Positions 38,648-64,000 of a stretch of DNA of 64,000 bases are shown in pieces. This DNA comes from Caenorhabditis remanei (taxonomy: Eukaryota > Nematoda > Chromadorea > Rhabditida > Rhabditidae), in NCBI RefSeq assembly GCF_010183535.1, contig NC_071332.1, forward strand, positions 18,724,001 through 18,788,000, read 5' to 3'. The stretch's first letter is position 1. Each line of letters begins with the position of its first letter. The translations under genes and the position numbers were made by a program. Below the pieces are notes generated by a model that had not been told where the DNA came from, ran no database searches, and worked only from the letters and a program-made list of their open reading frames with translations.

Positions 38648-41600
38648 ATGGTTCGTGAAACTAAAGCGCAAGCAGATAAAAAGGCGGCAGATGTCGAACG
38701 GAAACGTGCAAATCGAAAACAGGAACATTTGAATAGTGGCGGAGACAGTCAGGGTATGTTCCCCTTCGGGCCTTCATCGAAATATTGTAACAACAATTCA
38801 ACTAAACAAAGAAAATTTTTCGCCTTGATTTGAACTTATCATTAACTGCTTTCTTCTATATTATCCCAACTTAAAATTTAAAAAATGACCAAATTTTCAG
38901 AACCTCAAAAAAAACGGACGGAAATGAGTCAAGAAGAGCTTCGAGTGTACTGGGCTGACCAAAAGCGCATCAAACGGGAGAAGCAGAGAAGTTTGCAAAG
39001 TTCTCAGCTCAGTGCGTGTTCACAAGAAACTCAATTATCAGGTGAGAACTTTTTTTCAGTTTTTAAAATAGCCTACATAGGACTCCTCATAAAATAGCAA
39101 ACACTGTTTTCTGATGTTGTCTCACCAACAAAAAATCTTAGAACCACGACGTCACCGAGTTGAATTTATAATTAACTGTTTTTTTTTCCAAATTATTATA
39201 AATTAGAACCCAAAAAATGATCTAATTTCCAGAAACTCGGAAAAAACGGTCGGAAATGAGTCAAGAAGAGCTTCGAGAGTACAAGGCACAAAACAAGCGC
39301 AGCAATCGGGAGAAGCAGAAGAGTTTGCAAAGTTCTCAGCTCACTGCGTGTTCACAAGAAACTCAATTATCAGGTAAGAACCTATTTTCAGTTCTCTCAA
39401 ACTCATAAGATAGCGAAAAACCAAAACGGTATTCCCATGTAGTAAAGTTGTTAATTTTTCGGCTATCTTGTGAATTAAAAAACCAGCTTTTATAAACTTC
39501 TCCTCATTCCGAATTAAGATCAAACTATAATTATGCAAAATTACAGAAGGAAGGAAGAAAATTAAAGATATGAATCCTGAAGAGCTTAGTAATTACCGGC
39601 GTCAAAATCGTGAAGCTTGTCGGAAGAAGGGAAGAACATCAACAACCTCTGATATGGAACTCAGCCAACGCACTTCGACATCCGATTTCAATTTTCAGCA
39701 CAGTTAGTTTATTCATTGTTTTCATAATTTTTAGTGGGAGGATACAGTTTTGCAACATAGTGGGAGGATACATTTTTTTAGTGGGAGGATACAGTTTTGC
39801 ATCCGGAGGGAAGTTTTTCCCCGTAATTAGTATACCAGAAAAAAAACTATTTTTCGTTATTGTTTTCCCGGACGTGAATAGTCCTATTCGGTTTACATCA
39901 TACCCATAGTATTTTTTTCGAGTAATTTTTGACGAAAAAAGTTGCTATAAAACACGATCCACCGAGATACACACATCTATTTTCAAATGTCGTATACTAA
40001 ATACTTCCTCATTGAAGAGCAAATGTAAAAATTTACTTTTTTTAAAACGGACATGCGACTTTGGGGCTTATAATTTTGAGCGCGTCTTCGACATATTTTT
40101 TCATACTTGTCAAGGCCCGGCCCGGGCCTTGCCAGCCAGCGAAACTAAGGCCCGGATATTTGGCGCCAAGATTCTAAATACAAATTTTTTCGAATTTTTT
40201 AACATTTTTTGAATTATTTTTTCTTAGAGATTCTTTTAAACTCAATTTTTTTCAAGGTCCGGCCGATGAAAAGTTTTACGCGCGACTTCAAACAAAATAA
40301 CCATTTTTTCAACATTATTTTTGACTTTTTCCAATTTTTCATCGAAAGTGTGAAAATTCTTGACGATTTTTCAGAATTTCTGCTAATTCTGAATCATAAT
40401 CAAAAATATGATTTCATCTTCTTCACTATGGTGTTTGGAGAAACGCTTTTATGAAACACCTTTTCAGACAGCCAATTCGACATGGAATCACTTCATTCAG
40501 AAATGTCGGACGTGTTCGATCAACCAACGAGCAGCAATGCTGCAGCTCGAATTGGAAGAAAACGGATGATGAGTCCACAAGAGGAGGAGGAGGAGGACGA
40601 TGACGATGAGATGCCTTCGTCACAAATGTCCACTTATATGCCGAATTGGAGTGCAAAGGAAAAGGAAGAGTTCAAACGAGTGAAGGTCCGATACAACACT
40701 CGATCGAAGAAGGCTTTGATGTCGCAATCGTCATACGGTTCTCCCGATGATCACCAATCTTCCGTAGCGACATGCGATGTAGCGGAGCCTCAAGAACTCC
40801 CAGAGCAGCAATTCAACTGCAAAATTCGTTTTGCACTTGTGGATCTACTTCAAGTAGAAACGGATTGCATTGTTTTCCCCTTTTGCGGTGATCTGGATTT
40901 GACAAAACGCACAAAGATTTACAGTCAATTCTGGAGAAAGATGTGCAGGGAAGTCGATGATCAGGAAGAATATAAAGAGTTCTTAGAGGATCAGTGTCAG
41001 GAATTGGAAGAAGGAGACATTGCGGGCTTTATATGGCAAAGATTGGGAAGATCTAAAAGTAAGTTTTAACAAATTATAAAAAGCCCATAGATAATTTTAA
41101 TTTAGTCAATCAATACGCATTTAAGTCATCAGAATTTCAAAAATGTTCATTTCATCATCATTTTTCAGCGTGCTTCCACATTCGAGAGCCGGTCAGCGAG
41201 AAGAACAAGTACACAACTGTGTATGAAGCCCAACTTCGAGCCGCCATTTTCAAGTGTCTCTACCAAGCCGATCGAAATGGTCACAGCAGCATTGCGTTTC
41301 CAATTTTTGGTCAAGTCGAAAATCGTCTCAAGGCAACTGCAATCACATTGCAAACAATTTGGTCATATTTTCAAGTTGTAAGAAAATCAAATTTGAAGTT
41401 GGTGTACTTGACCACAAAAATTGCACCGCTCTATGATTTTATTGGGAAATGCATGAGCTACATCCGAGAGATTGACCTTTCGAATTGGAGTCGTCAACAC
41501 TTCTTTCAGTTCGAACAAATGCTTTTCGACAAGATCAAAAGTGAAGTGATCTACTCCACTGTTCCTGGAACCGATATGGCAATGAGAGCTTTCAAGTTCA

Positions 41601-44600
41601 GCTTGGAAAGTAAAAAAGTTAAAGACCAGAAAGAAAAACTGAAGTAAGATACATTTAAGTTTATAATTAAATTTAACCATTTATTTTAACAGAAATCTCC
41701 ATGCCGAAATGTGCTCAATGACAGGATTGCCAGCCAGTGACTTCGTTTTAACCAGGGATAGTGGACGTCGATTGCCTCATCATTACATCTCTGACGTAAC
41801 AGTTTCTGATGATGAGTCTCCGGAGCTCATCAGTCTGTACTTTCCGATGGAGAACGTCTGTGGCTCAACATCTGTACTTCGAAAGCTTTGGGTCGTATCG
41901 TATTACTACATGTATTACAGCGACAGACTTGGAGGTTTGTGTCAGAAACGGGGGAAAAACATAGTGAACAAAGCTTTTGGTTCGGTACTATAAGGTAAAT
42001 TCGTAGATTTCTCTTTGAAGCTTTAGAAAAAGAAAAATGTTGTTGGTGGTGCTTAAATAATGACCCGATGGATGGGTACAAAACCTTTTTTGCTTTCTCA
42101 ACTCCTTTAATACTTTTTAATTTGCAGACTCATTCGACTTTGCTGAAAACTCACTGGAACATAAAACACGCAAAGAAATGTTCAACAAACTTAAAAATTT
42201 GCATCGAGAAGTATTGCTTCAGTGGAAAAGGACAATGAGAAGTAGGAAATTAGTAGTGGGGTTTCATGTTCTGGTTGCTAATTGATTTTTTTCAGACGTT
42301 TGCTACAAATGCAAATGCCAAAAACCGGATGGATATCATGAAAATCTCTCTTATTTCAATACTCAGATGAGTCACCCGGACATTGTTTTTGATCAATGGA
42401 TACTATTCGACAAATGCATTCTGGTTGATGGAGAAGATGTGATGAATTTGCAAAATCTTAGCATCCAGACTTCTCCTCAGAAATCTGAAGAAAAAGAGAA
42501 AGTCATGTTGAAGTTGGCTTCTGAGCAAGAAGAAGTGGTTCGTAGCTGAATTATCTTACTTTCCATACAATACATTGTTTTCAGGTGAAAGAAAAAGTCC
42601 TTGAATGGTTCAAAAATGTGAAGGAGTATACCAGAAATCGAACTCGCAACTTTCGAGCAATTATCGAGCATCTTGATCTCAGCGACATACGAACGGGAAT
42701 AGATGATGACCCAGCAGTGTTTGATGATCTCGAAGTATATGATGAATACTTAGATAGAAGAGGAGACGGCGGGGAAGAGAATGACGCTCTGACTGAAGCT
42801 GAAGTGATTTATAGGATGGCTTATGGAATGGAGGAAATTCAAAAAGCAGCTGAAGAAGTTAACCGTTGTCTCCGTGATGTTGCGTTAAAACGATATGTCG
42901 AGCATGAAATCAATGAAGGACATCTGGAGAAGTCATTACGGCACAGTAATAACTTTTTCAGGGTTGTCGGTCTTTTAATCACTCAATTTTCAGGAATGGT
43001 CCGGAAGAACAAATACACTCTCAGTCCGCAAGTAGTTGAATTATGGAAGACAGAGAACAATCGGACTTGTACAGTTGACGAGTTCATAGCTGCCGAAATG
43101 AAAGAGATGGGAAAGAAAGAGTTGGATCTTCCACAACATATCGACACTACATTGGATGACACATTCAGAATGTTCTCAAGATATCCAAAACCAATTGATC
43201 TTGGAAGAAGAACAGATAAGTGCTACCATTGTGGAGCACTTTCATTCCCACGAGAGAGACTGAAATCGTGCTGCAAAAACGGGCGTTTTTGGATTAATCC
43301 AGTGAAGAAGATCCCACCTGCGATTACCCAGATGTTTCAGGAAAAGTTCAGAGGATGTCTGATTTCGGTAGGTTTCCTATATATAATTTGAACGTTTTTC
43401 ATAAAAATTTTCCAGGCAAACGCAGCATTCTCCATGGCCAGCGTCAACTACAACCGTCAACAACAGAAGGCTCACGGAGTGCAGTCGATGAAAGTTCAAG
43501 GAGTAGTAACCTTCCTGCCATCTGCCATACATCCACGGGAGACCGCAAAAGCAAGATATGCAAACTTCATTGTACTGGAACACGACAATGAAACAATTGC
43601 ATCCATGCGATTCGAGTCATTAAGAGTAAAAAATCCTCTACTGGAGAAAATGTTTTTGGACATTCAAGAATACTTGGACGCTAACAACTCCTTGTACAAA
43701 TGCTTCAAGAGCATGGCTCAGCTGGAGAAAGAGGAATTGCAGAGACGAGGGCTCAGCCAAAGTGATGCCAGCAATGAGTTCATCCGGTTCACAATACTGT
43801 CACCCACAGAGTTGGATCATCAAGACAAGCTTGTTGCACATCCAGGTGTCTATGCTCAGAAGAAGAGGATGCCGAAACATCACGTGGCTGTAGCAATCAG
43901 TATGAATCCAGAAGACACTTCTGCTCGGCCACGAGGATTGACCATCTATCCAAAAAATCCATCCAAAGGAAAGCCGCAACAGGCGATTTCAATCTACTCG
44001 GACTTGTGCGACACAATGGGTTACCCTCTCCTGTTTCCTGATGCACAAGGTGGATATGCTCTTCATAAGTACCCAAGACGGACTGCAAAAGATCCAAAGC
44101 CGTCGTACGAGCAGAACATCAGGAACCACATCGAGGAATTGTTGAGTAACGAGGAGAACCCTGAGGACTACTACAACTTGGGACCAGAGTTCAATGAGAT
44201 GTTGGAGAGTTTGAACCAACCATCTACTTCTGCAAGCGGGATGGAATTTGATGACTCGGATTTGTAAGTAATATACATATTTCGTAATAGAAGAGCAATC
44301 GAATTATTCATCAACTCAAATTCTCACATTTTCTTTTTTCAGAGATGATATGGATGTCCGGCAAGATCAAGACGTTGAGGATGGATTTGATTGGGACGAA
44401 GAGGAATATGATCCAGAAAAGTGAGTAATGGAGATGAATTATCTGAAAGATTGATTAGGGATAAACATTGTTGAAGTGGGGGGATAAATGATAAGCAGAA
44501 CCATACAATCATCAAAGTTATTTTTTTCAGTTTGGACAATCAGCAAATACTCGATCAGGGATTGCTGGAAGATGAGCAAGAGTTTCCGGTGGACGACGAA

Positions 44601-47600
44601 ATCGGACAACAGAACAACATCACAATGAAGCAACGAAAAGGAGATATGTATCCAGTCATCGATCAACACCAAAGAACCATCGACATTCCAATTGTATCCG
44701 GAAATCCATTTGGGCCGGACAGTGATTCTGAGGAGGAGCCGCCAATTGACCGATACAGAGGTACGAACAACTACGACGATTATGTGCCCCAAGAATTGGA
44801 CAATGTTGATATGGATAGGGAGAGAGAAGTTGAACTGGAAGAGGATAGACTGAAGGAGAGAGAGGAATCGGTTCGAGGTTCAAGAGAAGAAGAAGATGAA
44901 GGAGAAGAAGACGAAAATGATGAGCTTGAACTCGACGCAGTATGTTATGGCGACGAGCACGACGCAGAACCGCTGGCTCTTGCAAGAAAAAATGATGGAG
45001 TTCTTGTTAAGAATGTGAGTTTACTTTTAGATTATCGTATTGACGAAAAAAAGCAATCAAATCAAAAGGTTAATTATTATATCATTTCAGATCGGACAGA
45101 GGCTGAACGTCAGCAGAGCTGAACACGCAAACTTCTTGTTTCAAGACCGAGAAGAAATTCCGAACAGATATCAAGGAGAATCTCGAACTCTTGGACAATT
45201 GGTTGTGATTGACTACGGAGCCCGCATGATTGAAGGAAGGATGAACGCATTACTTGTGCATCGAAGTGAATTTCATCGGTTCGCGGGCAGAAGCCAAGTT
45301 TTCAAGTTTCAAGAACAGATGGTAAATGAAAAGTTTAATGGCGTTAGGAAGCTCGGACAACTGGCCACACTCCCTTCGAGTGTTCCAGGAACTGTCAAAT
45401 ACCAACGAGAGTTAGTCATGACGGGAGTCACACTTGCCAACAAGCTTGGAAAACCTCATCTGTTCATCACTTACACTGGAAATCCGAAATGGCCAGAAAT
45501 TCAGAGAGAAACGAAATTGAGAGGAGTCAACTGGACTGACATTCCGACATTCGTTAACACCGTCTTCTGGACAAGGTTCGAAATTTTCATCGAAGAAGAG
45601 CTCCTTGGACCAAAAAAGAAAATCTCCGCTCAAGGAGGAAAGATCGTGAGAGAAGGTGGAAATTTTGGCGTTGTGAGGTGGTTCATATACTCGGTGGAGT
45701 TCCAGCAGAGAGGAATGCCCCACGTCCACTTGATTGTCTGTCTGGAAAAACCAATCACCACCGCAGCTGAAGTTGATGATATCATTTCGGCCGAAGTACC
45801 AGAGATGCCAAAACGAAACGATCCAGAATATGAAGAGGTTTGTTTTCTTTAACATATTAGTGTAATTTTCACAATTCCTTTACTGAGAATCATCAAAAAC
45901 AACTAATTATGTTTTTTCCAGAAACTCCGGTACTACAATCTGGTGAAAGATATGATGGTCCACTTCCCCTGTGAAAACGATCCAACTGCGTATTGCAGAG
46001 AAGGAGCAAAACTTCATTGGAAACAATGTGTGAAATCATTTCCTAAGAAGATGTCAGATTTCACCGTGCTGACGGACAACCAATATCCGGACTACAAAAG
46101 AACGAATACAAACAAGTTTGTTTTGTACCGGAAAGGGAAAGCACATGTTGCTGGCAGTGAATATGTGGTGTCTCACAACAAGCCTTCGTTGATGAAACAC
46201 GAGTGTCACATCAATGTCGAAGTCATCACAACTCTCCACACCCTGAAGTACATATTCAAGTACCTCTTCAAAGGTCCTGATCGCATGCTTCTTGAAGTTT
46301 GTGAGAATATGGAAAAAGGAAATCCGGACAAGACTGCGATGACTCTTAGAGGCAACGTCTTTGCTCCAGCTAATCTTCCTGAAGGAAAATTACGTGCCCG
46401 GCAAAGACAAGCTGACAAAATGATGGATGCTGCCGGAGTCACCATTCCAAAAGATAAGCGTCTTTCAATGAATGAATGCACTGCTGTTTTGGATATGGCG
46501 GCAATGACGGCTAACGAAGCAGCTTGGAAACTCGCTTCACGACCGATGCATGGATGTTCCCATATTGTTTTCAAAGGATACGTTCATGAAGAGAACAATG
46601 AATTGCTGTATTTCAAACGCGGACTATCTGCGGCTTCTGCAAAGAAATTGCTCGAAAAAAAAGTTGCTGGGCAGATGGCTGCTTGGTTTAACGAAAACAA
46701 GAATCCAAAGCAGCTCAAAAACGGAATGATGACAACTGATCTGACTCTTCCAGAAATGTTCCGTTTCTATATGTTTAGCATGAAGACGCAGAAGTTCATT
46801 CTCCGAAAACGTGATCTCTCTGGAAAAATCTTTGGGCGGATCCAAGCACCACAGCCAAGAAATCTGGAACTCACCGCAGTCCGTTTACTTGCTCATCATG
46901 TTTGTGGACCGACAAGCTGGCAAGACTTACGGACATACAAAAACGTTGTCTACCCAACTTGTCTCCAAGCAGCACGGGCTCGACGTCTGATGAATGGAGA
47001 GCAGGAATGGAATGATTTATTGACTGAAATTGCTGGTTATGAATCTCCAATTGAATCCCGTCGGATGTTTGCAAGTATACTCCTTCACTGTGCTCCAGCC
47101 AATCCGAAAGATCTATGGGACAGTCATTGGGAAACCTTGGTTAGTAACAAAACGTCTTGGTCGGATTCTCAAAAGAAAGCTCACGCTCTTCGACACATCA
47201 ACTTCCTTCTGCAACGCCATGGAATGAATCTGGATCAGTTCGAGCTTGAAGGAGATTACAAAAAAGAAGATTTACCTTTAATCGACCCAGCTGAGGACTT
47301 CGACAACCCAGACTTCGTCAACTTATCTCGAAACGAGCATGAAAGTAAAGGAAGAACGTTGTACCGAGACTTGAACACGGAACAGAAGAACTTTGTGGAC
47401 CGAGTATTGGAGATGGATGACGAGACGGAGGTACCCAGAATGGTTTTTGTCGGCGGAGCTGGAGGAACCGGAAAAACATATTGTTATAATACAATATACC
47501 ATGTGTTGATGGCACGAGGCAAACAAGTTGGTACAGTCTCTCACTCTGGAATTGCAGCCAGTCTTCTACCAAATGGATGCACAGCTCATCGGAAGTTTTC

Positions 47601-48910
47601 CATCCCGCTTGAAGTTTGTGATAGGATGAATTGCAGCATTGACCTGATTTCAGCCGAAGGTGAGTGTTTCGGGAAATTAGAGTGTTTCAGTGAAGGGGGG
47701 TGTTTTAGGTTGCCATGTAGTATAATTTTTTAATTTCAGCTACTGCACTGAGAGCTTTGAGTGCCGTCATCTGGGATGAAGTTTGTATGTCCGACCGTAG
47801 AATAGTGTCGGCAGTCGACAACCTCTTCCAGGAACTCCACGAAAGCACACTTCCTTTTGGTGGAGTTTTGTTCATAATGGGTGGAGATTGGAGGCAAATT
47901 CTTCCAATTGTTCAAGGTGTTCGAGATCAAGGAGTCATTGAATACACTCTCAAGAACTGGGGTGATAATTGGACTCAAGTTGAGAAATTCCACCTGACAA
48001 TCAATCAAAGAGCCATTGATGACCCAGACTATGCCAGACTGATTCTCGAGATTGGAGATGGATCCAACTATGTACATGAGAAGAGACAGATGGTGTCAAT
48101 TCCGGACAAACTCATTCTAACCGGAACGGACACGGATCTCGTGGACTGGGTCTTTCCAGACGTCAACACCTACAAACTGGTGGAATCTTCTGCAGTATTG
48201 ACTGTGGACAATAGAACGGCTCTCCGAATCAATGAATACATCTTGGACAAGTTGAACGGAGAAATGAGAGAGTTTGTATCCATTGACACAGCTGATAAGG
48301 ACAACGCTCTCAACGTGGACCCAGCCATCTTTGCTACGGAGACACCACCTGGAATGCCACCCCACCGTCTTCGCTTGAAAGTCGGAGCCCAGATTGTTCT
48401 CCTTCGCAATCTGTCTGTGGAAGCCGGACTGTGTAACGGCACAAGATTGACGATTGTGTCTTTCGGAGAAGACGTAAGTTTTTTTGTCACATCTTTTTTC
48501 GGTTGAACCTATGCATAAATAAACTATTTTATTTCCAGATAATCTACTGCCACCGGAACACCGACCCGAAAAAGCCAAAGCAGATGGTCTTCTTGCATCG
48601 AATCTTGATGAGTCCCTCTGGAAAAGGAGGAAAGTCTTGTGGATTCCGCCGTCGACAGTTCCCAATTCGTTTGGCGTACGCCTGTACGATCAACAAGAGC
48701 CAGGGACAAACGTTGACAAGATGTGGACTGCTTCTGCATTCTCCAGTCTTCTCGCATGGCCAACTCTATGTTGCAATGTCGAGAGTAAGAAGAAGCGAAG
48801 ACTTCCGATTGTGGCACTACAAGAGAGGGACTCCCGACGACAACTACATCCATGGAGGGATTCTTGTGCGAAACGTGGTCTATCGAGAGGTTCTGCAGCT
48901 GGGAAATTGA
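38648..48910 (+). CDS. Helitron Rep/PIF1-type helicase, 17 exons, 2,663 aa (unit B2)
   Basis: Exons: 38648-38753, 38901-39041, 39233-39373, 39547-39702, 40468-41058, 41169-41643, 41693-41934, 42128-42241, 42296-42537, 42585-43367, 43416-44263, 44343-44420, 44531-45014, 45091-45837, 45922-47659, 47740-48473, 48539-48910. The sum is 7,992 nt with compatible phases throughout. Residues 1-180: basic, with three repeated exons (MSQEELR motif). About 298-470: macro-domain-like ([20 protein letters not shown]). About 948: Cys cluster [18 protein letters not shown]. About 1200: [11 protein letters not shown]. About 1380-1460: very acidic. About 1674: HUH nuclease motif PHVHLIV. About 1823: two-tyrosine [10 protein letters not shown]. 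About 2226: Walker [10 protein letters not shown]. About 2305: IWDEVCM. Near the end: [12 protein letters not shown]. It should nick and unwind DNA for rolling-circle transposition. TTTTTTACAG one base before the ATG could be an SL acceptor. Exon limits are by eye. Confidence 0.82.
39703..40467 (+). other. Long intron 4 of the Helitron B2 gene, with repeats
   Basis: 765-bp intron (CACA|GTTAGT to TTTTCAG). Contains three copies of GTGGGAGGATACA (about 39,733-39,795) and, at 40,102-40,112, CATACTTGTCA followed by GGCCCGGCCCGG, identical to the left terminus of the hAT at 49,824. No matching right terminus was found, so this may be a solo end. Confidence 0.5.
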
Positions 48911-49452
48911 AAATTGTGAGTTCGCGAGTTTCCAAAATTGTCTCAGCTTGCTGTGAAATTTATAACTATTCTCTCTCTCTCTCTTCGGAAGATAATGAAC
49001 GTGTTTTCAGCGATGCTGGGAGAATCGATACAACAACGGGACATCGGATGATTTGGCATTGGATTCTTTTGGCACGTTACACTTAGCATTTATTATTGAC
49101 TGGTTCATGTTTTAATTTTCTTGTTATTTTTTGCTGTTATTTTCTATTGTTTTTTTATTATTGTTATTATTACTTTTGAGATATGAATTGTGAAACTTTT
49201 TTGAAATTGTTTGGATATTTGAAAAAAACTTCAAAGAATGTTCAAAGAATGTAAATTATTTGAAAAATAATTTAAACATTTATTTGAACACTCTAACAAT
49301 TTCCAGATGATATAAAGCAATGTTACGTACAATTTCCAGTAAAATTTAATTTAAAAAAGGCAATGCAATAATTTGAATGTAAAACTTGCCATGCACCGCG
49401 CACGGGGCGAAGCCCCGTCTTGCGGAGCCCGCCGGGAGGCGGGGGACGCTAG
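48911..49452 (+). other. 3' non-coding region of Helitron B2
   Basis: AT-rich 3' region ending in the hairpins and CTAG. A possible further exon (TTTTCAG at about 49,009, then open to 49,085) lies after the stop, but no donor requires it. About 49,240-49,452 matches the 3' end of element D. Confidence 0.5.
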
Positions 49453-49823
49453 TCATAGTCAATATAATTATGACTAGTTATTTTCAAAATTCAGCATTAT
49501 TAATTAAAACTATTCCAATAAGTAATATAGAAAGTGGAGTTGTTTTCCTTGGGTTGACCATACAAGATTTTGAATTTTTATACTGCGATCCCGGACAGGT
49601 GCAAATTTCGAAATTAGCTCGGCCCGTTGCAAGTCCGTATCCGTTTGCTCAAACTTTCTGGCACTCGTTGACAGGTCTTTAAACTTTTCATCTTCCTGTC
49701 ACTTTTCCTATCCGCTTAATTAAACCAAGCTTTCCGTCTTCAACATTTTGTTACTTACTTTTAACACGTTCACGAAAAGTCGAAAAGTTTTTGAGTTTGA
49801 AAGAGAAAGAAAGAAAAATAAAG
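49453..49823. other. Host spacer right of the Helitron array
   Basis: TCATAGTCAATATAATTATG ... TTAATTAAAACTATTCCAATAA continues the F-box-cluster spacer that stops at 31,923, judged by its paralogs near 12,290-12,420 and 29,670-29,740. About 49,560-49,650 carries a degenerate ACTTGCAACGGGCC-type foldback end. It ends with AAATAAAG, the left target duplication of the hAT. Confidence 0.6.
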
Positions 49824-50090: not shown

Positions 50091-52901
50091 ATGACGGATA
50101 ATCAAAAAGAAAACTCGTTTACTAAATTGCTGCAAGGATATATCGAAAAACGTGATATCAAAGTGAAGGCTGTAAGTGTCAATTCAGCCTTTTTCGTATA
50201 TTAAAAATAATATTGCAGGATGAAGCTTATAGAGACGAAAATTACCGTATTGTTATGTATCGTGAAGACGAAGACAAGGAATATGAAGAAACAGGCCGTG
50301 TAATGTGTGTAGGCTGCAGAAAGATACTCTCCGGAAAAGACGGGAGTCATCTGCGTCGTCATACGAAAAATTCTTGCAAGATGAAGAGAAAACTGCCTGA
50401 CAGTGTTGAAAATGGAGATTTGGAATCGAGTTTGTCCGAAGTTAAAAGTCGGAGAATTGATGGTATCACTATTTCTGAGATTTTTGTAAAAATGAGCAAA
50501 AGTAATCAGAAAGAATGCAGTTATCTAAGGGGTTTCAGAAAGTTTCAGAGAAAAAAAACTATTTCCAGAGTTTACCACCAAACAATTCCGACAAGGCGAG
50601 TTATCAAAAATCACAACGGCTATTGCGAAGTACGGAGTGAGCTCGGGACGTTCGTTCAATCATTTGAGTTCTGAATCTATGAAACGATTGGTATTGGATA
50701 TAAGTAATGCATCGTCGTGAGTAGCTCAGTTTAATATATAAGCCATTGTAACTAATTAATATTTCAGAAGTGGTGGTTATGGCGAGGCCGCCCTGAAACA
50801 ACTTCCGTCACGCAATACTATTCAGAAAGTTTCCGAAAATATGGCTCAGAACCTGATTACAAAACTTTATACGTATTTGTCACGTTTCACCGAAAATCGT
50901 CTTCATTTGATTATCGATTATGGGAAGCTTGTCACCCACTATCTAAGTGTGTTCGGATCTTTTGTCGATGATGAATTCAAACTGCAAGTCGTACCGTTAG
51001 CATTCATTCCCACATTTGAAGGGAAAACAGCGAATGAGACAGCAAAGTTAATCAAACATCGATTAGAAGAATACGGTTGGACCAAAGAACAAATTGAGTC
51101 GTGTTATGTGACTGCCGATGGTGGTATCTCTAATATTGGTTCACATTTTTACAGTTGTGAGTGCGTTTTTTCCACTAAATAAGCATAACAGTTTTCTTCA
51201 GATGTGAGATGCGTGTCGCATAGTGTCAGCTTGCTTGGATCGAAAATTATAACTCCACTGTTGATTCATCGAAAAAATCATCTATTGTCATCAGAAGATC
51301 TCGATATGTTAAGCCGACTAGAAGATGTTATCAATGTATCCAAAAAAGTTGCTGGCTACATTCGCTGGAATTCTACTATATGCCAGTCTCTGCCACGTCT
51401 TCCTACTTTGCCTTCGGATACTAGATGGCTTAATGGTGTAAAATGTCTGAAAGACGTCATGGAACTGATGGAAAATATTCAACCAAATATTCAACTGTTC
51501 TCCCCGAAAGGTAGAGAACGAATCCGACGTCTCGCTTCTGAAGATGAAAAACTCGCTCACTCAATTTTATTGGTATTTTCACCTCTGCTGACATACAATC
51601 AGGTGTTCCAATGCCAGAACAAGATTACTTTAAATCTTGTATTGCCTGCTTACAAACATTTAGACAATCGATTCAAAAAATTCCTCGAAGACGATTTCAC
51701 TGGAGTTGATATGGACACAATTGATACAGATTTTGTCAAAGTTATGTCGAAATCCGGTAGATTGGCCCTACAGCATTACTACGCGGAGTTCACCGATTTA
51801 CACTATGGCGCTGTGATGCTGTCTCCGGCTACAAAAAAAATGTCGAACTTTGAGAGAGCAGAACAGCTGAGAGCTAAAGGGGGGTATTTGAGTTTAGAAC
51901 TCGGAAGAATAGAACTGCGACAAAATAAAACTGTGAAAATATAGAACAGGAAAAAATAGAACTGAACAAAGTGGAACTACGAAAAAATGGAACTGCTACA
52001 AAACAGAACTCGACAAAATAGAACTGAACACAATGGAACTGCTACAAAATAGAACTGTTACAAAATAGAACTCTAGTTCGAATGGAGCGCGTTTGCATTT
52101 TTTTGCAAAAATTCAATTTATTTTTGACTTTTCTCAAATAAATTCATATTTTTCATCGAATAATTGTTCAAATTAAAAAAAAAGTCGTTCTGATTCTTCT
52201 AAAAAGAAAAAAAATGCAAACGCGCTCCATTCGAACTAGAGTTCTATTTTGTAACAGTTCTATTTTGTAGCAGTTCCATTGCGTTCAGTTCTATTTTGTT
52301 GAGTTCTGTTTTGTAGCAGTTCTAACTTTCACTGTTCCAGTTTGTAACAGTTCTATTTTCGTCTGTTCTATATTTTCACAGTTTTATTTTGTCGCAGTTC
52401 TATTCTTCCGAGTTCTAAACTCAAATACCCCCAGCTAAAGACTTTATTATGGATATGCTACCGAAAGACATGTCATCTGTGAGAAATTCTCCAGCACCCA
52501 CTAAAAATGATGGAGTAGAAGATCTGTAAGACCTTCTTCGCGACACTCCTCAATCAACTTGTGATGCGAACAACGAACTAGAACGGTAATTGAACCTTCC
52601 GCCACAGCGACATTTAAATTTGTATTACAGATATCTCTGTGAACATGTTGACTCAAATTATTCCGAAACTCTTGAGAATTACTGGCACCGCAAAAAGAAC
52701 GAGTATCCCGCACTCTACGAAGCAGCCACAAAATTGTTCAGTGTGATTCCAAGTGAATCAATCTGTGAATCCTGTTTTTCGACTGCTTCATATTTATTAG
52801 ACAAACGTAGGACACGTCTTCAATATTCGAAAGCTGAGCTAGTCGTAATGGGGTGCCAATTGGCCAATAAATTTCCACACTGGTTAGACGATCTTGCATA
52901 A
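50091..52901 (+). pseudogene. hAT transposase, interrupted by a MITE
   Basis: Exons: 50091-50171; 50219 to about 50,487; about 50,557-50716; 50768-51156; 51202-51879 continuing at 52441-52525 after the MITE; 52631-52901. The borders of exons 2 and 3 are uncertain. Exon 2 has a BED-type zinc finger (CVGC ... HLRRHTKNSC). Then hAT catalytic-region landmarks: IIDYGK, TADGGISNIG and DTRWLNG. The last exon is the hAT C-terminal dimerisation region (SICESCFSTASYLLDKRRTRL). The 553-bp MITE introduces a stop at 51,944; removing it with one copy of its 8-bp duplication restores the frame exactly, so the gene was intact before that insertion. Confidence 0.8.
51880..52432. mobile_element. MITE inside the hAT transposase
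   Basis: Near-perfect palindrome with ends GGGGGTATTTGAGTTTAG and CTAAACTCAAATACCCCC; arms of tandem (TAGAACTG.(N)CAAAA) repeats; loop near 52,110-52,210. Flanking 8-bp duplication AGCTAAAG at 51,872-51,879 and 52,433-52,440. It could have been mobilised by a hAT transposase. Confidence 0.85.
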
Positions 52902-55477: not shown

Positions 55478-56502
55478 ATGACGACTCCGTTCTTTCTCTT
55501 ACGACTTCCAAGACTTGCACTGATTCCTGTTCTTCAACAAATGGAGCCTATTGATCTGTAAGTTTTCATCTTTTTTTTGTTCTATCCCTCATATTCAATC
55601 GTTTCAGAATTGCGTTCTCGCTTCTCTCCAATAAAGCAAAAAATCTGGTAAAAATGTTATGCAAAATAACTGCCGGTTCTATCAATGTGGTTTTTAAGAG
55701 TCATTATCCTCGTATCACAGTTGTATTGAGAGATGATACATCAGTAGGGCTCAGTTTGTACACGGAGAGAGTTCCGGATGTGGCCAACATGATGCTTCAA
55801 CACAAAACAATTTCATGTGAAAAGAAGTCTATCACTGTCGCGAAATTGGTAGAGCGAATTGTCGACGTTACTAGTTGTCAATCGCTTGAACTTGTGGTTC
55901 TCAGAGGACCTCTACAACTAGAAGTGTGCGATACTCTCGCTCTACTGACAAAACTCAGTAAATTGACTATCATGAGGGACTGTTCAAATTGCTTCGCAAG
56001 GAAAGCTCTTGAAATTGTCTCGACAGTTACCACGCAGATTTCATTGTGCCGAATTCCTTTCGAGACCGGATATGATTTTCAGACATTTCTGAAGAGCAAT
56101 TTGAACTCTTTGTATATTTACAGTTGTTTCTCGAGGTTCACTCTTGAAGACCTTCTAGTCACAAACGCACTCAAAGTGGTATTGAGACAAGTCAAGTTGA
56201 GTGCCAGGGATATCACTCAATTTATTACAAATTGGTTTCACAGCAAAAACAACTCTCGACTAGAACATCTGTCATTGCTTGTAGACGAAGTTGTCAATGA
56301 AATGTGCCTTCCGGAAGTACTGGAGGCTGTTCCATTTCCAAGAGACCAAGAAAGAACGTTTTTTTATTCAAAACATTTGGACTATTCATCAGAATCGTTT
56401 CGTGGAGGATATGATATCAAAAGAACAAATGGGAAGAAAGCCACAATTGTATTTGTACCCGGTCACGGAGTGACATTTATCGATTTTTACGTTTGGCCGT
56501 GA
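55478..56502 (+). CDS. Gene J: intact fbxb-like F-box protein, 324 aa
   Basis: Exon 1 55478..55557 (ATG, 26 codons + 2 nt), a 50-bp intron (GTAAGT ... TTTCAG) and exon 2 55608..56502 (TGA) give 975 nt in frame. Residues about 4-45 form the F-box (PFFLLRLPRLALIPVLQQM ... IAFSLLSNKAKNLV), split by the intron as in genes H and I. The rest is the F-box-associated region, with the best FBA_2-like part at about 180-260 (SRLEHLSL), ending VTFIDFYVWP. It is expected to be an SCF substrate adaptor. A poly(A) signal AATAAA lies about 90 bp past the stop (56,593). It is the only intact member of the three copies here. Confidence 0.85.
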
Positions 56503-56818: not shown

Positions 56819-58553
56819 CTAGCGTCCCCCGCCTCCCGGCGGGCTCCGCAAGACGGGGCTTCGCCCCGTGCACGGTTCATGGCAAGTTTTAAATTCAAAA
56901 TATTGAATTGCCTTTTAAAATTAAATTTTACTGGAAATAGTACAGAACACTGCGTTTATATCATCTGGAAACTGTTAGAGTGGTCAACGTTTAAATTATT
57001 TTTTCAAATAATTTACATTCTTTGAACAATCGTTGAAGTTTTTTTTTTCAAATATTCAAAAAAGTTCAAAAAAAGATTCACAATTTATATCTCAACAGCA
57101 ATAATAACAATAAAAAAACTTTTTTTTTTAATTTTTCAAATTCGAAGTTTTGAATTTGAAAAAATCAAAAATCTTTGTCGAAATCTCAGTAGTATTGAAC
57201 AGAACTGTTTGGATTATTCCCGATCCAAAAAAGCAACAAAACGATTATAAACAGGAACTTCCCATTGACTTAATTCCCTAAACTTCACGTTCTAAAGTTG
57301 TAAAAACCATTGCTGAAAGATTTGTTCTATTCGAAAATCACTTCAATCCAAAAAGTAAAATAATTCTAAAAAAGTTTAATAATAAATTTTTAAAAAGTCA
57401 CTCATGAGAAGATTCGAACCATCACCTCACAGATTCTCACCCCCGCCCACTGCCACTGCGCCACCGACGCACAGAAAAACTCGGTCATTGAGGGAATAGA
57501 AAAAAGGGGAGCTCCTCGCAGCAGTACAATGACACATACAATGACAAAATTGTCAGTGTATTCGAAAAAATGTCAGTGGAGATTCAGGTTTCTCCACAGA
57601 ATCGTCCGATATCAATATTTTTTGATCGGACTTTTTGGTTCCATTAGATCTCCAAAAGTTTAGATCGGTGTCAAAAATTCAGAGCGATTCAGTGAATCCT
57701 GTTCACAGGACAGCGTATAGAAAAAATCCCCACATGACCGAAAAACCACGAAAATCACAAAATCCGGTTTTTTGAAAGATTTTTCAACTAAAAGTATCTT
57801 GAATTTTACATGGTTCGATAGAGTTTTTTTTTCTACACATTTCTTTTTTTTCGGATCCTGAAATTTCTCAAATCCGGGCGAGTTACAGCCGGTGAAAGTT
57901 TTGGGCGGAAAAAGGGGGATCGATCGATAATTGTTCATTTTTCGACTGTTTTTTGAGTATAACTCGATTGCATCACTTCCAATTTAAAATCTGCTTTTTT
58001 AGTCACCTCCCCCATGCCAAGTTTCATAACTGTACCAAATTTCAAAGCTCTCGGTTCAATACAACCCGAGATATCGAGAGGAAAGTAAAAAATTCGGGAA
58101 AAAAAGTTGTCCCCCTTCTTTTATGGTCATAAATCATAATTTTCCAGATTTCCAAATAATTTTTACATGTCTCGATAGCCAGATGTTTAGAGATCTCAAG
58201 TCCGAAAAATCCCCCGGAAATGTTCAAAACTGGCGCCGTACGAAGCAGGAAACGGTGAAAATAGTGAAATTCTCAAGCCATTTTTTTGAGCGAAAAAAGT
58301 TGCTCTCACTTTTGTGCTCATAACTCTCTCCCAAGTGCTCCAAACCCACCCCCTGTTGGTCGCCACCGGCGCCCCAAGTTTTTGTATCACCTCAAAAAAG
58401 AATTTTTTGGAAAAGTTGAGAGCAAAGAGAGTTATTAAAAGAAATAAAAGCGGTCAAAATTGTGGACATTTCTGTCGACATTTTTTTTACCACAAGCTCC
58501 GCCCACTCCAAATCGGCACGCTCATACTTACGCGATTTAAGAAGAGGGGCCGA
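56819..58553 (-). mobile_element. Helitron unit D, non-autonomous (family 1)
   Basis: Minus-strand 5' end TCGGCCCCTCTTC at 58,553, 3' hairpins and CTAG at 56,819-56,822, then host T. The 5' part matches units B1/B2 and the 3' 200 bp match the end of B2, so it is an internal-deletion derivative of that Helitron. The tRNA-like boxes are kept at about 57,413-57,470. No coding capacity. It directly follows the CTAG end of Helitron C. Confidence 0.85.
57413..57470 (-). promoter_or_regulatory. tRNA-like Pol III box pair in Helitron D
   Basis: Minus-strand TGGCGCAGTGG and GGTTCGAAT with the same spacing as in B2 (36,689-36,740), conserved although the surrounding DNA has diverged. Confidence 0.4.
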
Positions 58554-58828
58554 CTAGCGTCCCCCGCCTCCCGGCGGGCTCCGCTAGACGGGGCTTCGCC
58601 CCGTGCGCAGTGCCCAGCAAGCTTTGAATTTTTGTTCTTCGACCATTTTGATGCAAATTAATTTACTTTTTTGATTTTATGTAACCAAAGCAAGCAGATA
58701 TTCATTAGCTTTCAAATGGTAGTAAAACCAAGTCTGTACGACAATTTTGAGCCGAGTTATAAGATTTTGAAGTGTAGAGGCTGGGGCGCCGCGAGGCGCG
58801 AAGCTTCTGAAGTTTATCAGTTTCACCC

Positions 58829-59272: not shown

Positions 59273-62200
59273 TCAAATTTTCACAAAAGCTAGAAGAGTC
59301 GCTATGTAATTTTCCAAATCCACATCATATTGTTCGCACTCCTTTTTATTGTCACTGATGCAAACCATGCCATCTTCTCCTCGCACCCATGCTTGATAAT
59401 GTCCGCTCAGTCCTCCATCGCTCGAACTGTACTCAGCAAACGCTTGGAACTGGTAGAATTCCCCAAACATTGAAACGACTGTGTTCACATTGAGATCCCA
59501 GAATCGTTTCATGTTGGGGATGACAGTTACAAAAATTTGCGAGCCGTTGATAATTATCTTCGGTTCTGTCCACATGTCCTTCGCGTTGCATTTCGTACAA
59601 GGAGTGTCCAAGTGTCTCATCTCGTAAATATCATTGAATAGATCCTCAAAGTTGGCATCTTGTGACATCTGGACTTCAATATGTGTTGCAGCAGTAGCGT
59701 TTCCGTAAGAAGGTTCTTCATCGCATGATCTGCATTTGGTCTCCGGTGCGTGTTCCATCTGGATTGTGGTTCCATCTTCAACAGCCAGTGCCCTCATCAA
59801 CATATCGAACACTTCCACCAGATCCTGTTGACCAGTGTGGAATTCCGCTGGCAGTGTTTGGCGCCACTCTTTGGCGGAGAATGTTTCTTTTCGAAAGATT
59901 CGTCCCAATATGTTTCCAAGTGGCATATTTGGATGTTGGCAATTTACGTACTTCTCTCGAACCTCCGGGCAGTTGTAGAGAATGTTAACAATGGTGTTAA
60001 TAAAACAATCCGTACCATCTGTGTCCAACAAGAGGTAGGGAAGGTCCAGTCTCTGTGGAGCAAATGGGGCCGCTCCAGAATTGTTTCCAATATTCGAAAC
60101 AACATCACTGCTCTTCTGCACTGGTTTTTTGTTGAAGATTTTGAAGAATCGTTGCAATGTCGAAGGTTTTGAAGATTTGGTGGTTTTCGAAGATTTTGGA
60201 GCCATGTCCGTTTCATCAGATGTTTCGGAATCGATGGATTTGGTTGGGGAAGTTCTCGTGACTAATAAGGTATCGGCTGTTGTTTTCATAGATTCGAGTG
60301 TGGTTTTGATTGGCTCATTTCGCAAGACATCCCTATAAACCACATTTCGAACAAGAATTCCACCACCGACTATGTTGTCATATCCTTCGGTGACTCGCTT
60401 GGTATGCCACATCCTGAAGTCTTCTGCTCGTTGCACGCGAGACATTGCGACATATAGTTGTCCGTGAGAAAACACGGCGGAATGTACTAAGAGTCCGCAT
60501 CTTGACAACGTCTGACCTTGACTCTTGTTAATTGTACAAGCATATGCCAATCGGATGGGATACTGTAATCGTCTGAAGCCACATGAATTCGCACCATTTC
60601 CAGTTGGACACATTATCATTCGATGCAGGAACACAGTTTTCGGCGATTTCGAAGTAGGAGTGTTGACGGAACAGAAGATAACCTGAGAAATTAATCAATT
60701 AGTTGGTGAAATATGATAGGAGAACTTACATCATTTCCAAACGCTTCAACAGTCAAACGTGTTCCATTACAAAGACCCTGTTCCACAGACAAGTTGCGAA
60801 GTAGCACAACTTGGGCTTTAACTTTTAGTCTCAGCCGATGTGGTGGCATACCTGATGGAGTTACAGTTTGGAACACGGAAACATCAGCTGTGAACCCTGT
60901 GGTCTTATCAGAAGTATCAGTCGAGAAAAACGTTCTAACCACTCCATCAAGTTTGTCGAGAATGAAGTCATTCATTCGGAGAGCAGTTTTATTGTCAATA
61001 GTGAGGAGGGCAGCCGTTTTTGTTTCTTCGATTTTGTTGACATCAGGGAACACCCAATCGGCTAGCGCTTTATCACCGGCTCTCTCAACGAACTGTTCGG
61101 GAATATGTACCATTTGACGTTTCTCATCGACATAATTGGTTCCATTACCAATATGGAGAATCAGCTTAGCATATTCAGGATCGTTGATGGCACGTTGGTT
61201 TTCTGTTAGTTCGAACTTCGTCATCTCATCCCACAGAGTACTGGTTTTGAGAGTGTAGTCCGAAACTCCATGTCCTCTGACACCTTCGACGATAGGTAGA
61301 ATCTGGCGCCAATCTCCTCCCATGATGATTAAAACTCCGCCAAAAGGTATATCAGCTTCACCTTTTAGAATTCGAAAAAGAGCGTCGACCGCATGTATGA
61401 TTCGTCTGTCGGTCATGCAAACTTCGTCCCAAATTATGCAATCAAGTAAACGGAGTGCAGCTGCTGAAAAAATGAGAAATTGGTTAGTTATTCCATTGAT
61501 TTCCTAAATTTCACTCACCTTCTGATCCTTCCGCATCCACTTTGCAGACCATACGGTCTACGACTTCCAGTGGAATCGAAAACTTCCGATGTGCAGTGCA
61601 CCCATCAGGTAGAAGACATGCAGCAATTCCATAGTGGGACACGCAGGCAACAGATTTCTTTTTTGACATCAAAATGTGGTGAATGGTTTTGTAACAGAAC
61701 GTTTTGCCTGTACCTCCTGCTCCACCCACATAAACCATTCTTGATTTTCCCACAACGTTCACCAACTTGAGCACTCCGGTAACGAATTCTTCCTGTTTTT
61801 TGTTCAATTTCTTGAACATCTCTCTTCCTTTTTCTTTATGTTCGTTTCGGTTGAAATGGACGATATTGGGATTGTCGACATCGTCTTCTGGGCGGAAGTT
61901 GGGCAAGTTATCCTCGTCGTACTCTTTGTCCAGTTCGAAATCGCTCAATTCCATTCTATGACGTGCAAGAAGAAATTGGATATGACGGAGTGCATGGGCG
62001 ATTCTCTGAGCGTCGGACCATGTATTATTCGTGTTGATGAGATCTTTCCAATGGAGTGTCCAAAGATTTTTTGGATCAGATGGGGCACAATTCAGAAGAA
62101 TACTGGCGAAAAATCGTCGGCATTCTACAGGGATTCGTAGTTGAGCAATTTCCGTTAATGCGAGATCCCACTCAGTATCTCCGTTCATAAGCCCACGGGC

Positions 62201-64000
62201 ACGAGCAGCTTCAAGACACGATGCATAAACTGTTCCTCGATAACTTCTCAAATCTTCCCAACATGTCGGTCCCCGCACAGCTTCAGCCAGAATACGAGTG
62301 GCAGTTCGCTCGAGAAATCTGGGCTGCGGTGGTTGAATGCGGCCAATTATCCGATGAGAATAATCTCTTTCGCGAAGAATGAATTTTTGTGCTTTGGTAT
62401 CGAACTTATAGTATGATGACATTTCAGACAATGTTAAGTCAGTCGTAGAGATGTCATCAGTTATTTGGTCGGGTTTCTGATTAGCCTCGAACCAAGCATT
62501 CATCATACCTTTGGACTTTTCTTGGCACATCCTTCCAGCTTTTGCGGCATCAACTCCTCGAACTGTGTACATTGGTTCTTTGTTCTCTTCGTGGATGAAG
62601 GCTTGGTTAACGATATGAGATGAACCGTGCATGTGGCGACCAGAGAGCCTCCAGATTGCCTCAGGCGCTGTCATTGCCGACAAATCCAACATGTACGTGC
62701 AATCATTGATAGCGATGTGGTTTTCGGTCACATTAACACCGGCCGCTTTCATTGTTTTGATTGCTTGTTCCTGGCGTTCTCTGACTTTTGCTTGATTGAG
62801 ATTTTTTGGAACGAACACACAGCCATCTAAGGTCATTGAATCTGACGCCTTCGATCCTTTCACGTTCTTTTCCGATGCTTCCAGTAGAATACGATCCGCT
62901 CCTTTGTGGATATATTTGAAAACATACTTTATGGATTTCAGAGAAGAGACGATTTCGACATTGATGTGGCACCCATGCTTCATGAGTAGCTTCCTGCTGT
63001 GGGGAACGACGTAATCACTTCCGGCAATGACTCTTCTTCCTTTTCTCATGAAAATGAATACGTTCTTTCTGGTTCTCCTGTATTTTGGATACTCATTATC
63101 ACAGAGTACTGTCTCGTCAGAAAATTGTTTTGGAAATCCTTTAGTGCATGTCCTCCAGTGAGACTTTTTATCCTTCATACAGTAAGCGTCGTTATCGTGC
63201 TCGCATGGGGCGTGAGTCATCATGTCACGAACCAGATTGTAGTAACGAAGATCCTGAAATTATGGTGTTTGTATACATAGTCTTTAAAAATTCACTTACA
63301 TCTTCATAATTAGGACTGTTTGTGTCTGTCGGAAAGTCTGGAACTTCGGCAGAAATAATTTCGTCAACTTGCTCGGCGGTAGTTATAGATACTTCCAAGC
63401 AAACCAGCTGATGAATATGAGGCATACCGCGTTGTTGAAACTCCACTGAATAATTGTGCCACCGAACTTGTCCAAACATTCCAACTTCTCTGACCACTTT
63501 TCCGTTCATCGATGACATTTTCTTCTGCTTTCCAAGAACGTCTTCGAAATACACTTCGCTCTTCACATCAAAAACTCGTACAATTATATCAGGAATATCT
63601 GCCCACTTGCAAGCTTTCATCATTGTTGCTCGTTTAATTTCGGGCCATTCAGGGTTACCAGTATATGTAATAAACAAATCAGGAGGTCCGAGCCGATTGG
63701 CAATGGTCACGGCACTCATCACCAGCTCACGCTGATATTTGCTTGATCCAGGTACACTTGACGGTATTGTGACGAGAGAGCCGATTTCCAACAATCCGCG
63801 ATAGTTCTCTTTGACCATTTTGGCGAGTGTCTTCATCATTGCACTTTTATTAGTTGCTCGTGGAATTTCCAATCGGTTGTAGGCAATCGCGTTCATTCGC
63901 ATTTCTTTGGCACGAAAAGCGGTGTCAATAACCCACAATTGTCCAAGAGAACCAGCTTTTCCTTGATATCTGCTTTCAATTCCTGGACGATCTTGTATGT
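59273..64000 (-). CDS. Helitron Rep/helicase with C-terminal USP-like protease domain (5' part outside window)
   Basis: Exons: 63300..>64000, 61519..63253, 60730..61463, 59273..60682; phases and intron positions match the last introns of the B2 gene. HUH motif GMPHIHQLV, two-tyrosine KYVFKYIHKG, Walker [18 protein letters not shown] and [12 protein letters not shown] are all present, so both activities look intact. After RNVVYRDVL the protein continues for about 360 residues (B2 stops there): a Lys/Ser-rich linker, then a domain with a Cys box (TDGTDCFINTIVNIL, Cys codon 60,005-60,007), two CxxC pairs (CRSC near 59,730 and CTKC near 59,595) and a His box (GLSGHYQAWVR, His codon 59,399-59,401). 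That is the landmark order of ubiquitin-specific proteases (C19), including the zinc finger. It probably removes ubiquitin from the transposase or host factors; this role is inference. Confidence 0.85.

Follow-up and report, generated by a model that had tools for sequence, protein, structure and literature searches.

Animal rolling-circle transposons that carry a deubiquitinase have been described before, and among the closest known systems are the VTD domains of Helitrons and Helentrons. According to the accessible part of PMC9741609, the VTD domains of zebrafish Helitrons (DrT1 and DrT2) are active deubiquitinases; Helitron VTDs react with probes for ubiquitin and cut di-ubiquitin of both K48 and K63 linkage. 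They are reported from vertebrates, insects, cnidarians and molluscs, and it was proposed that they keep proteins needed for transposition from being degraded. Animal Helentrons also carry OTU-like proteases (PMC4067079 and PMC6431247, available portions), and a C19 peptidase is fused to a transposase in the protist Trichomonas vaginalis (XP_001314237.1, Transposase_11 plus Peptidase C19; PMC2836005, available portion). No published description of a USP on a Helitron was found in the literature searched, most subscription papers lying outside its scope; within that literature a USP on a Helitron is new, whereas OTU- and VTD-bearing Helitrons are already known.

The locus described here lies in the genome of Caenorhabditis remanei (130,466,896 bases, 186 contigs), in a stretch of 64,000 nucleotides that we call the window (C5:18724001-18788000). 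Our main reading, to which we give a probability of roughly 0.7, is that the tail of its Helitron protein is a predicted active deubiquitinase of the C19/USP class, forming the C-terminal end of RepHel in a Helitron whose coding sequence is intact. The locus resembles the VTD-bearing elements in having a cysteine deubiquitinase in a rolling-circle transposon frame, with the catalytic residues kept and sometimes two domains per element; it differs in that those domains, in the sections seen, are of the VTD class and sit on Helentrons with an AP endonuclease. The OTU-like proteases likewise combine a ubiquitin-pathway cysteine protease with a rolling-circle transposon but belong, as far as the excerpts go, to the OTU class on Helentrons, whereas the window's domain matches UCH/C19. 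The Trichomonas protein shares the fusion of a C19 domain to a transposase, and its transposase (transposase_11, pfam01609) is an unrelated one in the portion of the paper available.

The RepHel gene and its C-terminal tail

The feature forms the C-terminal end of RepHel, and the coding sequence of this Helitron is intact. The gene lies on the minus strand, runs from about C5:18792936 to window position 59273 and thus overruns the right end of the window. Once its exons are joined over twelve GT..AG introns of 44-55 nt, picked by reading the sequence, it encodes 3029 residues without a stop. Another intron, 45 nt long, was probably left in: two stops (residues 1269 and 1273) fall inside this stretch in the copies L033 and L034, which have no further stop ahead of the final one in the exons covered (9-13, with part of 8 in L034). 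With this extra intron RepHel would comprise 14 exons and about 3014 residues. Matches to PIF1 helicase (PF05970, 81.2 and 69.3 bits) and Pif1_2B (58.8 bits) fall, after exon joining, in one protein with the Rep domain (Table 1).

A minus-strand frame of 473 codons, 60694-59273, stays open between the helicase motifs ([17 protein letters not shown]) and the stop at 59273, so that helicase, linker and USP-like domain follow one another in the last exon. The preliminary description had read an in-frame fusion to the Helitron helicase here, and with neither stop nor intron in between the fusion holds; the codons after the last helicase motif number 386 and not about 360 as it had stated. The landmarks that it named, a Cys box, two CxxC pairs about 45 residues apart, a His box about 200 residues after the Cys and an ISDN motif, were all located, with 45 residues from CRSC to CTKC and 202 from Cys to His. 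The 473-codon frame is intact in all four neighbouring C5 copies, and the near-identical C4 copies L005 and L006 have a 489-codon frame of matching layout; three other C4 places and the remaining tail matches are partial or broken. As was also noted earlier, the neighbouring family B2 is without the domain: its frame stops just past the helicase (...[13 protein letters not shown]), the last codon ending at 48907, and the search downstream of it gave no tail match at E 1e-3.

Table 1. Coordinates of the RepHel gene, the landmarks of its USP-like domain and the features compared with them. Positions are those of the window unless a locus is named; residue numbers are counted within window:59276-60091, minus strand.
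Feature	Position	Strand	Basis
Exon with Rep, extending beyond the window	63300..64000	-	Helitron_like_N at C5:18787402-18788004, 170.4 bits (cut-off 28.9)
Exon leading from Rep to PIF1 helicase (first PIF1 match)	61519..63253	-	Pfam, exon joining
Exon with PIF1 helicase and Pif1 2B domain	60730..61463	-	Pfam, exon joining
Last exon of RepHel: helicase C-terminal part, linker, USP-like domain, stop	59273..60682	-	Open frame, exon joining
Linker from helicase to USP-like domain, 91 codons	60050..60322	-	dN/dS 1.54, 6 changes only
USP-like (C19) domain, 258 codons	59276..60049	-	Pfam, seven-tail profile, landmarks
Predicted catalytic Cys 29, GTDCF	codon 60005..60007	-	Invariant in 7/7 tails
QQD box, GQQDL, Asp 90 (D90)	59822..59833	-	Its Asp invariant in 7/7 tails
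First CxxC, CRSC	59723..59734	-	Landmark reading
Second CxxC, CTKC	59588..59599	-	Landmark reading
Predicted catalytic His 231, SGHYQ	codon 59399..59401	-	Invariant in 7/7 tails
Predicted third catalytic residue Asp 247, ISDN	codon 59351..59353	-	Invariant in 7/7 tails
Probable 3' end: GC-rich hairpin, CTAG, then T	58553..58578	-	26-mer identical after B2
B2 RepHel, related Helitron without USP domain (comparison)	45031..48907	+	Frame and downstream tail search
Macro-like domain, N-terminal exon of the window's element	L031:9389-10000 and L032:1-378	-	Pfam and PDB profile
Macro-like domain, B2	40455-41066 and about 41200-41650	+	Pfam and PDB profile

The probable 3' end of the element lies 719 bases past the RepHel stop and agrees with the Helitron pattern of a hairpin and CTRR with a T behind it. 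It was found by reading the sequence for a CTAG end and by counting its 26-mer in the window, where five exact copies occur (33233, 34816, 49428, 56818 and 58553) and none in 100 shuffles; the copy at 49428-49453, on the plus strand, follows B2. This distribution suggests non-autonomous relatives using one common end. Two DNA searches near the 3' end returned shared terminal blocks and did not reach the terminus itself, and the 5' end is bracketed at about C5:18793378-18793432. No C-terminal AP endonuclease, a mark of Helentrons, was present in the exons scanned, the protein ending with the USP-like domain.

Other features of the window include probable hAT-family remains at 50156-52901, where one of three frames scanned matches Dimer_Tnp_hAT (52590-52898, 38.3 bits). 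Frames similar to F-box-associated genes recur across 64-31355. Matches to this group were obtained at 9908-10696 (FTH, 54.4 bits) and 55555-56499 (FBA_2, 61.0 bits), and a third frame tested, 67-978, had no Pfam match. The flank with 55555-56499 was duplicated along with the Helitron.

Homology to ubiquitin-specific proteases and selective constraint

Beyond the genome itself, comparisons covered PDB, Pfam, NCBIfam and phage records. Alone, the window's domain matched UCH and no other Pfam family, at 17.9 bits (E 0.0025), below the cut-off of 23.9, and as a single sequence the tail matched three PDB chains up to E 10, all of them USPs at a non-significant E of 0.63-0.91. A structure predicted from the single sequence had a pLDDT of 36.7, too low for use. 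Because the single-sequence matches were weak, relatives were collected by their likeness to the tail and not to USPs. The resulting alignment comprises seven tails (the window's family, L035, L038, two of L041 and one each of L042 and L039), three of them joined by hand over an intron. Kept outside it were the near-identical copy L033; the partial L043; L040, in which the CxxC part seems to be absent; L037 and the second domain on C53, both broken; and L044, which has no Cys box and was used in the smaller profiles described below.

The six other tails are 19-48% identical to that of the window, and C29, D90, H231 and D247 are invariant in all seven; the two CxxC pairs are not kept in every one of the aligned tails. 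Searched against PDB up to E 10, the seven-tail profile matched 93 distinct sequences, and the best 60 of these consist of 59 USPs and the deubiquitinase TssM. The top match is USP12 (E 7.9e-10), and USP46, USP5, USP14 and USP7 are also found. At E up to 1, Pfam UCH was matched by every one of the seven tails (best E 9.8e-11); twelve other families were each hit by one tail alone, the strongest being Herpes_UL17 (E 0.0046), which we take as a chance match. A profile restricted to the close clade (three rows) gave USPs in 7 of 9 PDB matches, none significant and with an antibody chain on top (E 0.28); when the L038 tail from C1 was added, USP5 came first at 7.3e-4 and USPs made up 29 of 35 matches. 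Two relatives exceed the UCH cut-off unaided, the C90 frame with 41.0 bits and the C53 place with 32.2 bits. An NCBIfam search with four tails gave no useful match, and the phage records held no match to the domain.

The preliminary assignment to the C19/USP type is therefore upheld by the match of the seven-tail profile to solved USPs and by UCH in all tails; the profile check proposed with it turned out positive for the alignment, and for the window's domain alone the score is weak. The tail is almost certainly homologous to USPs. A domain assembled from landmarks goes beyond chance here because of the E value of the USP12 match, the UCH match shared by all seven tails and the purifying selection described below. 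Cellular USPs, of which USP12 and USP46 are nearest by profile, share the Cys box, the QQD box, the paired CxxC, the His box and the Asp; the window's domain differs from them in being short and RepHel-fused, and in that the three genome searches with such tails, scoring first-look candidates, reached none of the UCH places outside Helitrons.

Selection was examined between copies, as had been proposed earlier. Over the 1938 codons compared, L031 and L032 do not differ. Between L031 and L033 the tail shows 13 synonymous changes against 8 non-synonymous ones (dN/dS 0.15, binomial P 4.5e-5), and counts are equal when L034 replaces L033; the predicted catalytic Cys, His and Asp are not among the seven changed residues. 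In the same comparison the helicase part of the last exon has 4 synonymous and no non-synonymous changes, the whole RepHel body 40 and 12 (dN/dS 0.09), and the linker 1 and 5 (dN/dS 1.54), that is, no detectable constraint in six changes only. The domain is under purifying selection between diverged copies, with the reservation that the window's flank is common to L033 and L034, so that the C5 copies are at least partly segmental duplicates and dN/dS says less about selection during transposition. Against the C4 family L035, where synonymous sites are saturated, the tail changes about twice as fast as the helicase part (pN 0.338 and 0.169, respectively). For L044, an orphan, N-terminally shortened C4 tail, constraint relative to L035 was non-significant (dN/dS 0.77, P 0.28).

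Distribution and history among C. remanei Helitrons

The genome was searched with three tails, and in each case first-look candidates only were scored (47 for the window, 55 for C90 and 15 for C1). The window's tail gave 39 matches; the C90 Helitron tail gave 43, consisting of its own relatives, the window's family, C4, C53 and orphans; and the C1 Helitron tail gave five, itself and only the four copies of the window's family. A search with the UCH family found 44 places, a single one of which, C53:4992-5237, lies within 3 kb of any tail match, and this place sits inside a Helitron. The three tail searches thus reach no UCH place outside Helitrons, which disfavours a recent capture from the host, with the proviso that a host USP could be missed because first-look candidates alone were scored. 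The earlier proposal that the family took up a host USP is not supported in that form, since what the searches reached were Helitron tails and orphan relatives. To judge from these sequences, the domain looks like an old transposon-borne USP lineage common to several Helitrons.

At least 36 Rep matches exceeded the cut-off, and at least 11 of them have a same-strand tail within about 6 kb downstream (four on C5, two on C4 and one each on C18, C90, C116, C53 and C1). One further Rep match, C4:2387161, has a tail upstream. The remaining 24 showed none, though some of these may have a tail that is too diverged to be found or that is cut off by the end of the contig. The helicases of the tail-sharing Helitrons are about 24-41% alike where aligned, and family A (L045), like B2, ends right after the helicase. 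In a helicase tree of seven rows, with pieces joined by hand, a midpoint root and A on a long branch, {L038, L041, L042} separate from {A, (window family, L035, B2)} with support of 100/100, and the tail occurs on both sides of this split. In the tree of the tails long branches meet, and the only join with support is that of the window's family and L035. Tail presence requires at least two changes on the helicase tree, which histories of gain and of loss fit equally: the tail may have been inherited from an early ancestor and lost in A and B2, or it may have passed from one Helitron to another. By reading, the tails of L039, L040, L041, L042 and L043 have a phase-0 intron just past the QQD helix, which the window's family, L035 and L038 are without.

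Tail-like USP domains were also seen at L039 (C2:16.94 Mb), L040 (C6:4.17 Mb) and L043, with copies at C2:17.81-17.86 Mb, on C19 and on C23. No helicase match was found in the 10 kb around L039, L040 and L043, which may be either relics of transposons or genes that the host has domesticated.

At least two USP-like domains stand in tandem after the helicase in L041 (2408-4310) and L042 (3051-6242), the second one on C53 (L042) appearing broken by a frame change. Exact four-fold TTAGGC arrays occur in 3 of 48 loci, L038 (C1:17221001-17231000), L041 (C90) and L042 (C53), which are the three divergent USP-bearing Helitrons; on C1, a contig of 17247545 bases, such arrays extend from 17218883 to at least 17240436. 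The USP lineage thus looks to be present, also in tandem, in Helitrons among telomeric repeats. These three resemble the telomeric Helitrons of Oscheius tipulae in having very long PIF1-helicase proteins among telomeric DNA; the accessible part of that report mentions no USP domain (PMC8022731), and the element in the window does not itself lie in telomeric arrays.

Possible roles of the domain

From its sequence, the domain is probably catalytically active. By analogy with the Helitron VTD domains, its most likely role would be the removal of ubiquitin from RepHel or from nearby proteins. The USP domain would travel with Rep and helicase to the DNA being replicated or inserted and would there strip ubiquitin from RepHel or from other proteins assembled at that DNA, and the transposition complex might thus be spared degradation and disassembly. 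Such action in cis, for RepHel or the transposition complex, is put forward tentatively.

An alternative agrees with this on an active deubiquitinase and differs in the target, which would be host chromatin or silencing (for example ubiquitinated histones or piRNA-pathway factors) and not the transposase. It fits the faster change of the tail relative to the helicase between the two families (pN 0.338 versus 0.169), as in host conflict, although weaker constraint would explain faster evolution equally well. It also fits the persistence in the same genome of the tail-less Helitrons A and B2, from which the domain may be dispensable for the basic reaction. We regard such counter-defence as rather unlikely.

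An active enzyme, whether acting in cis or on the host, is to be weighed against a USP fold kept without activity, which would serve RepHel by binding ubiquitin or by targeting. By reading of the alignment, the residue five before the Cys is Thr in the window's tail, Ser in L035 and Asn in L038, L039 and L042; in USP7 it is an Asn, which we take to form the oxyanion hole. The Thr at this presumed oxyanion position in the window's family would suit a pseudo-enzyme, as would the inactive USP54 among the matches of the seven-tail profile and the insect relatives of Helitron VTDs, which are likely inactive according to the part of PMC9741609 available. Set against this, Cys, His and Asp are retained in all seven tails despite their low identity to that of the window, and loss of activity appears improbable.

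USPs cleave after the C-terminal glycines of ubiquitin, and no ubiquitin-like domain was present in the exons scanned with Pfam; both points speak against a protease that cuts its own long polyprotein and releases RepHel from N- and C-terminal parts. The length of the protein, about 3000 residues, would suit such self-processing, and cleavage of the Rep/Helicase has been named as a possible role of Helentron OTU proteases (PMC4067079, available portion); we consider it very improbable here.

That the tail is a functionless passenger is more doubtful still: the capture of gene fragments by Helitrons is known (PMC6431247, available portion), and the orphan C4 tail L044 is without significant constraint, but the window's tail is constrained and the domain recurs in several Helitron families. 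Finally, an OTU or VTD domain merely resembling a USP is scarcely credible, even though both classes are known in Helitrons (PMC9741609, available portion), since UCH is the sole family hit by all seven tails, neither class is among the 13 Pfam families listed for them (for VTD a judgement from that listing and not from a profile of its own) and USPs make up 59 of the best 60 of the 93 PDB matches.

A macro-like (ADP-ribose-binding) domain was seen near the N terminus both in the window's family and in the tail-less B2. Pfam Macro was matched in both members (best E 0.0057, 17.0 bits, cut-off 22), and a two-row profile, its B2 row joined over an intron guessed by eye, matched macroH2A chains or fusions in 8 of 11 PDB matches (best E 6.9e-5). 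No paper pairing a macro domain with a Helitron was found in the literature searched, most subscription papers lying outside its scope. The chances seem to us evenly balanced that an old USP lineage of nematode Helitrons is a third class of Helitron deubiquitinase, multiplied in tandem in Helitrons among telomeric repeats and, together with the macro-like domain, joining modules for ADP-ribose and for ubiquitin. ADP-ribose and ubiquitin are host signals governing DNA repair, and one transposition protein would, if this is true, carry modules for both.

With OTU, VTD and USP, three unrelated classes would be found on rolling-circle transposons, for which accident is hard to argue; the recurrent gain of unrelated deubiquitinases would, if true, suggest that Helitron transposition generally needs ubiquitin to be removed, and the three classes would give a concrete handle on host ubiquitin control of this process. 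Since one genome holds families with the domain (the window's and L035) and without it (B2 and A), and since B2 and the window's family have the same 26-base 3' terminus, what the domain contributes can be tested directly.
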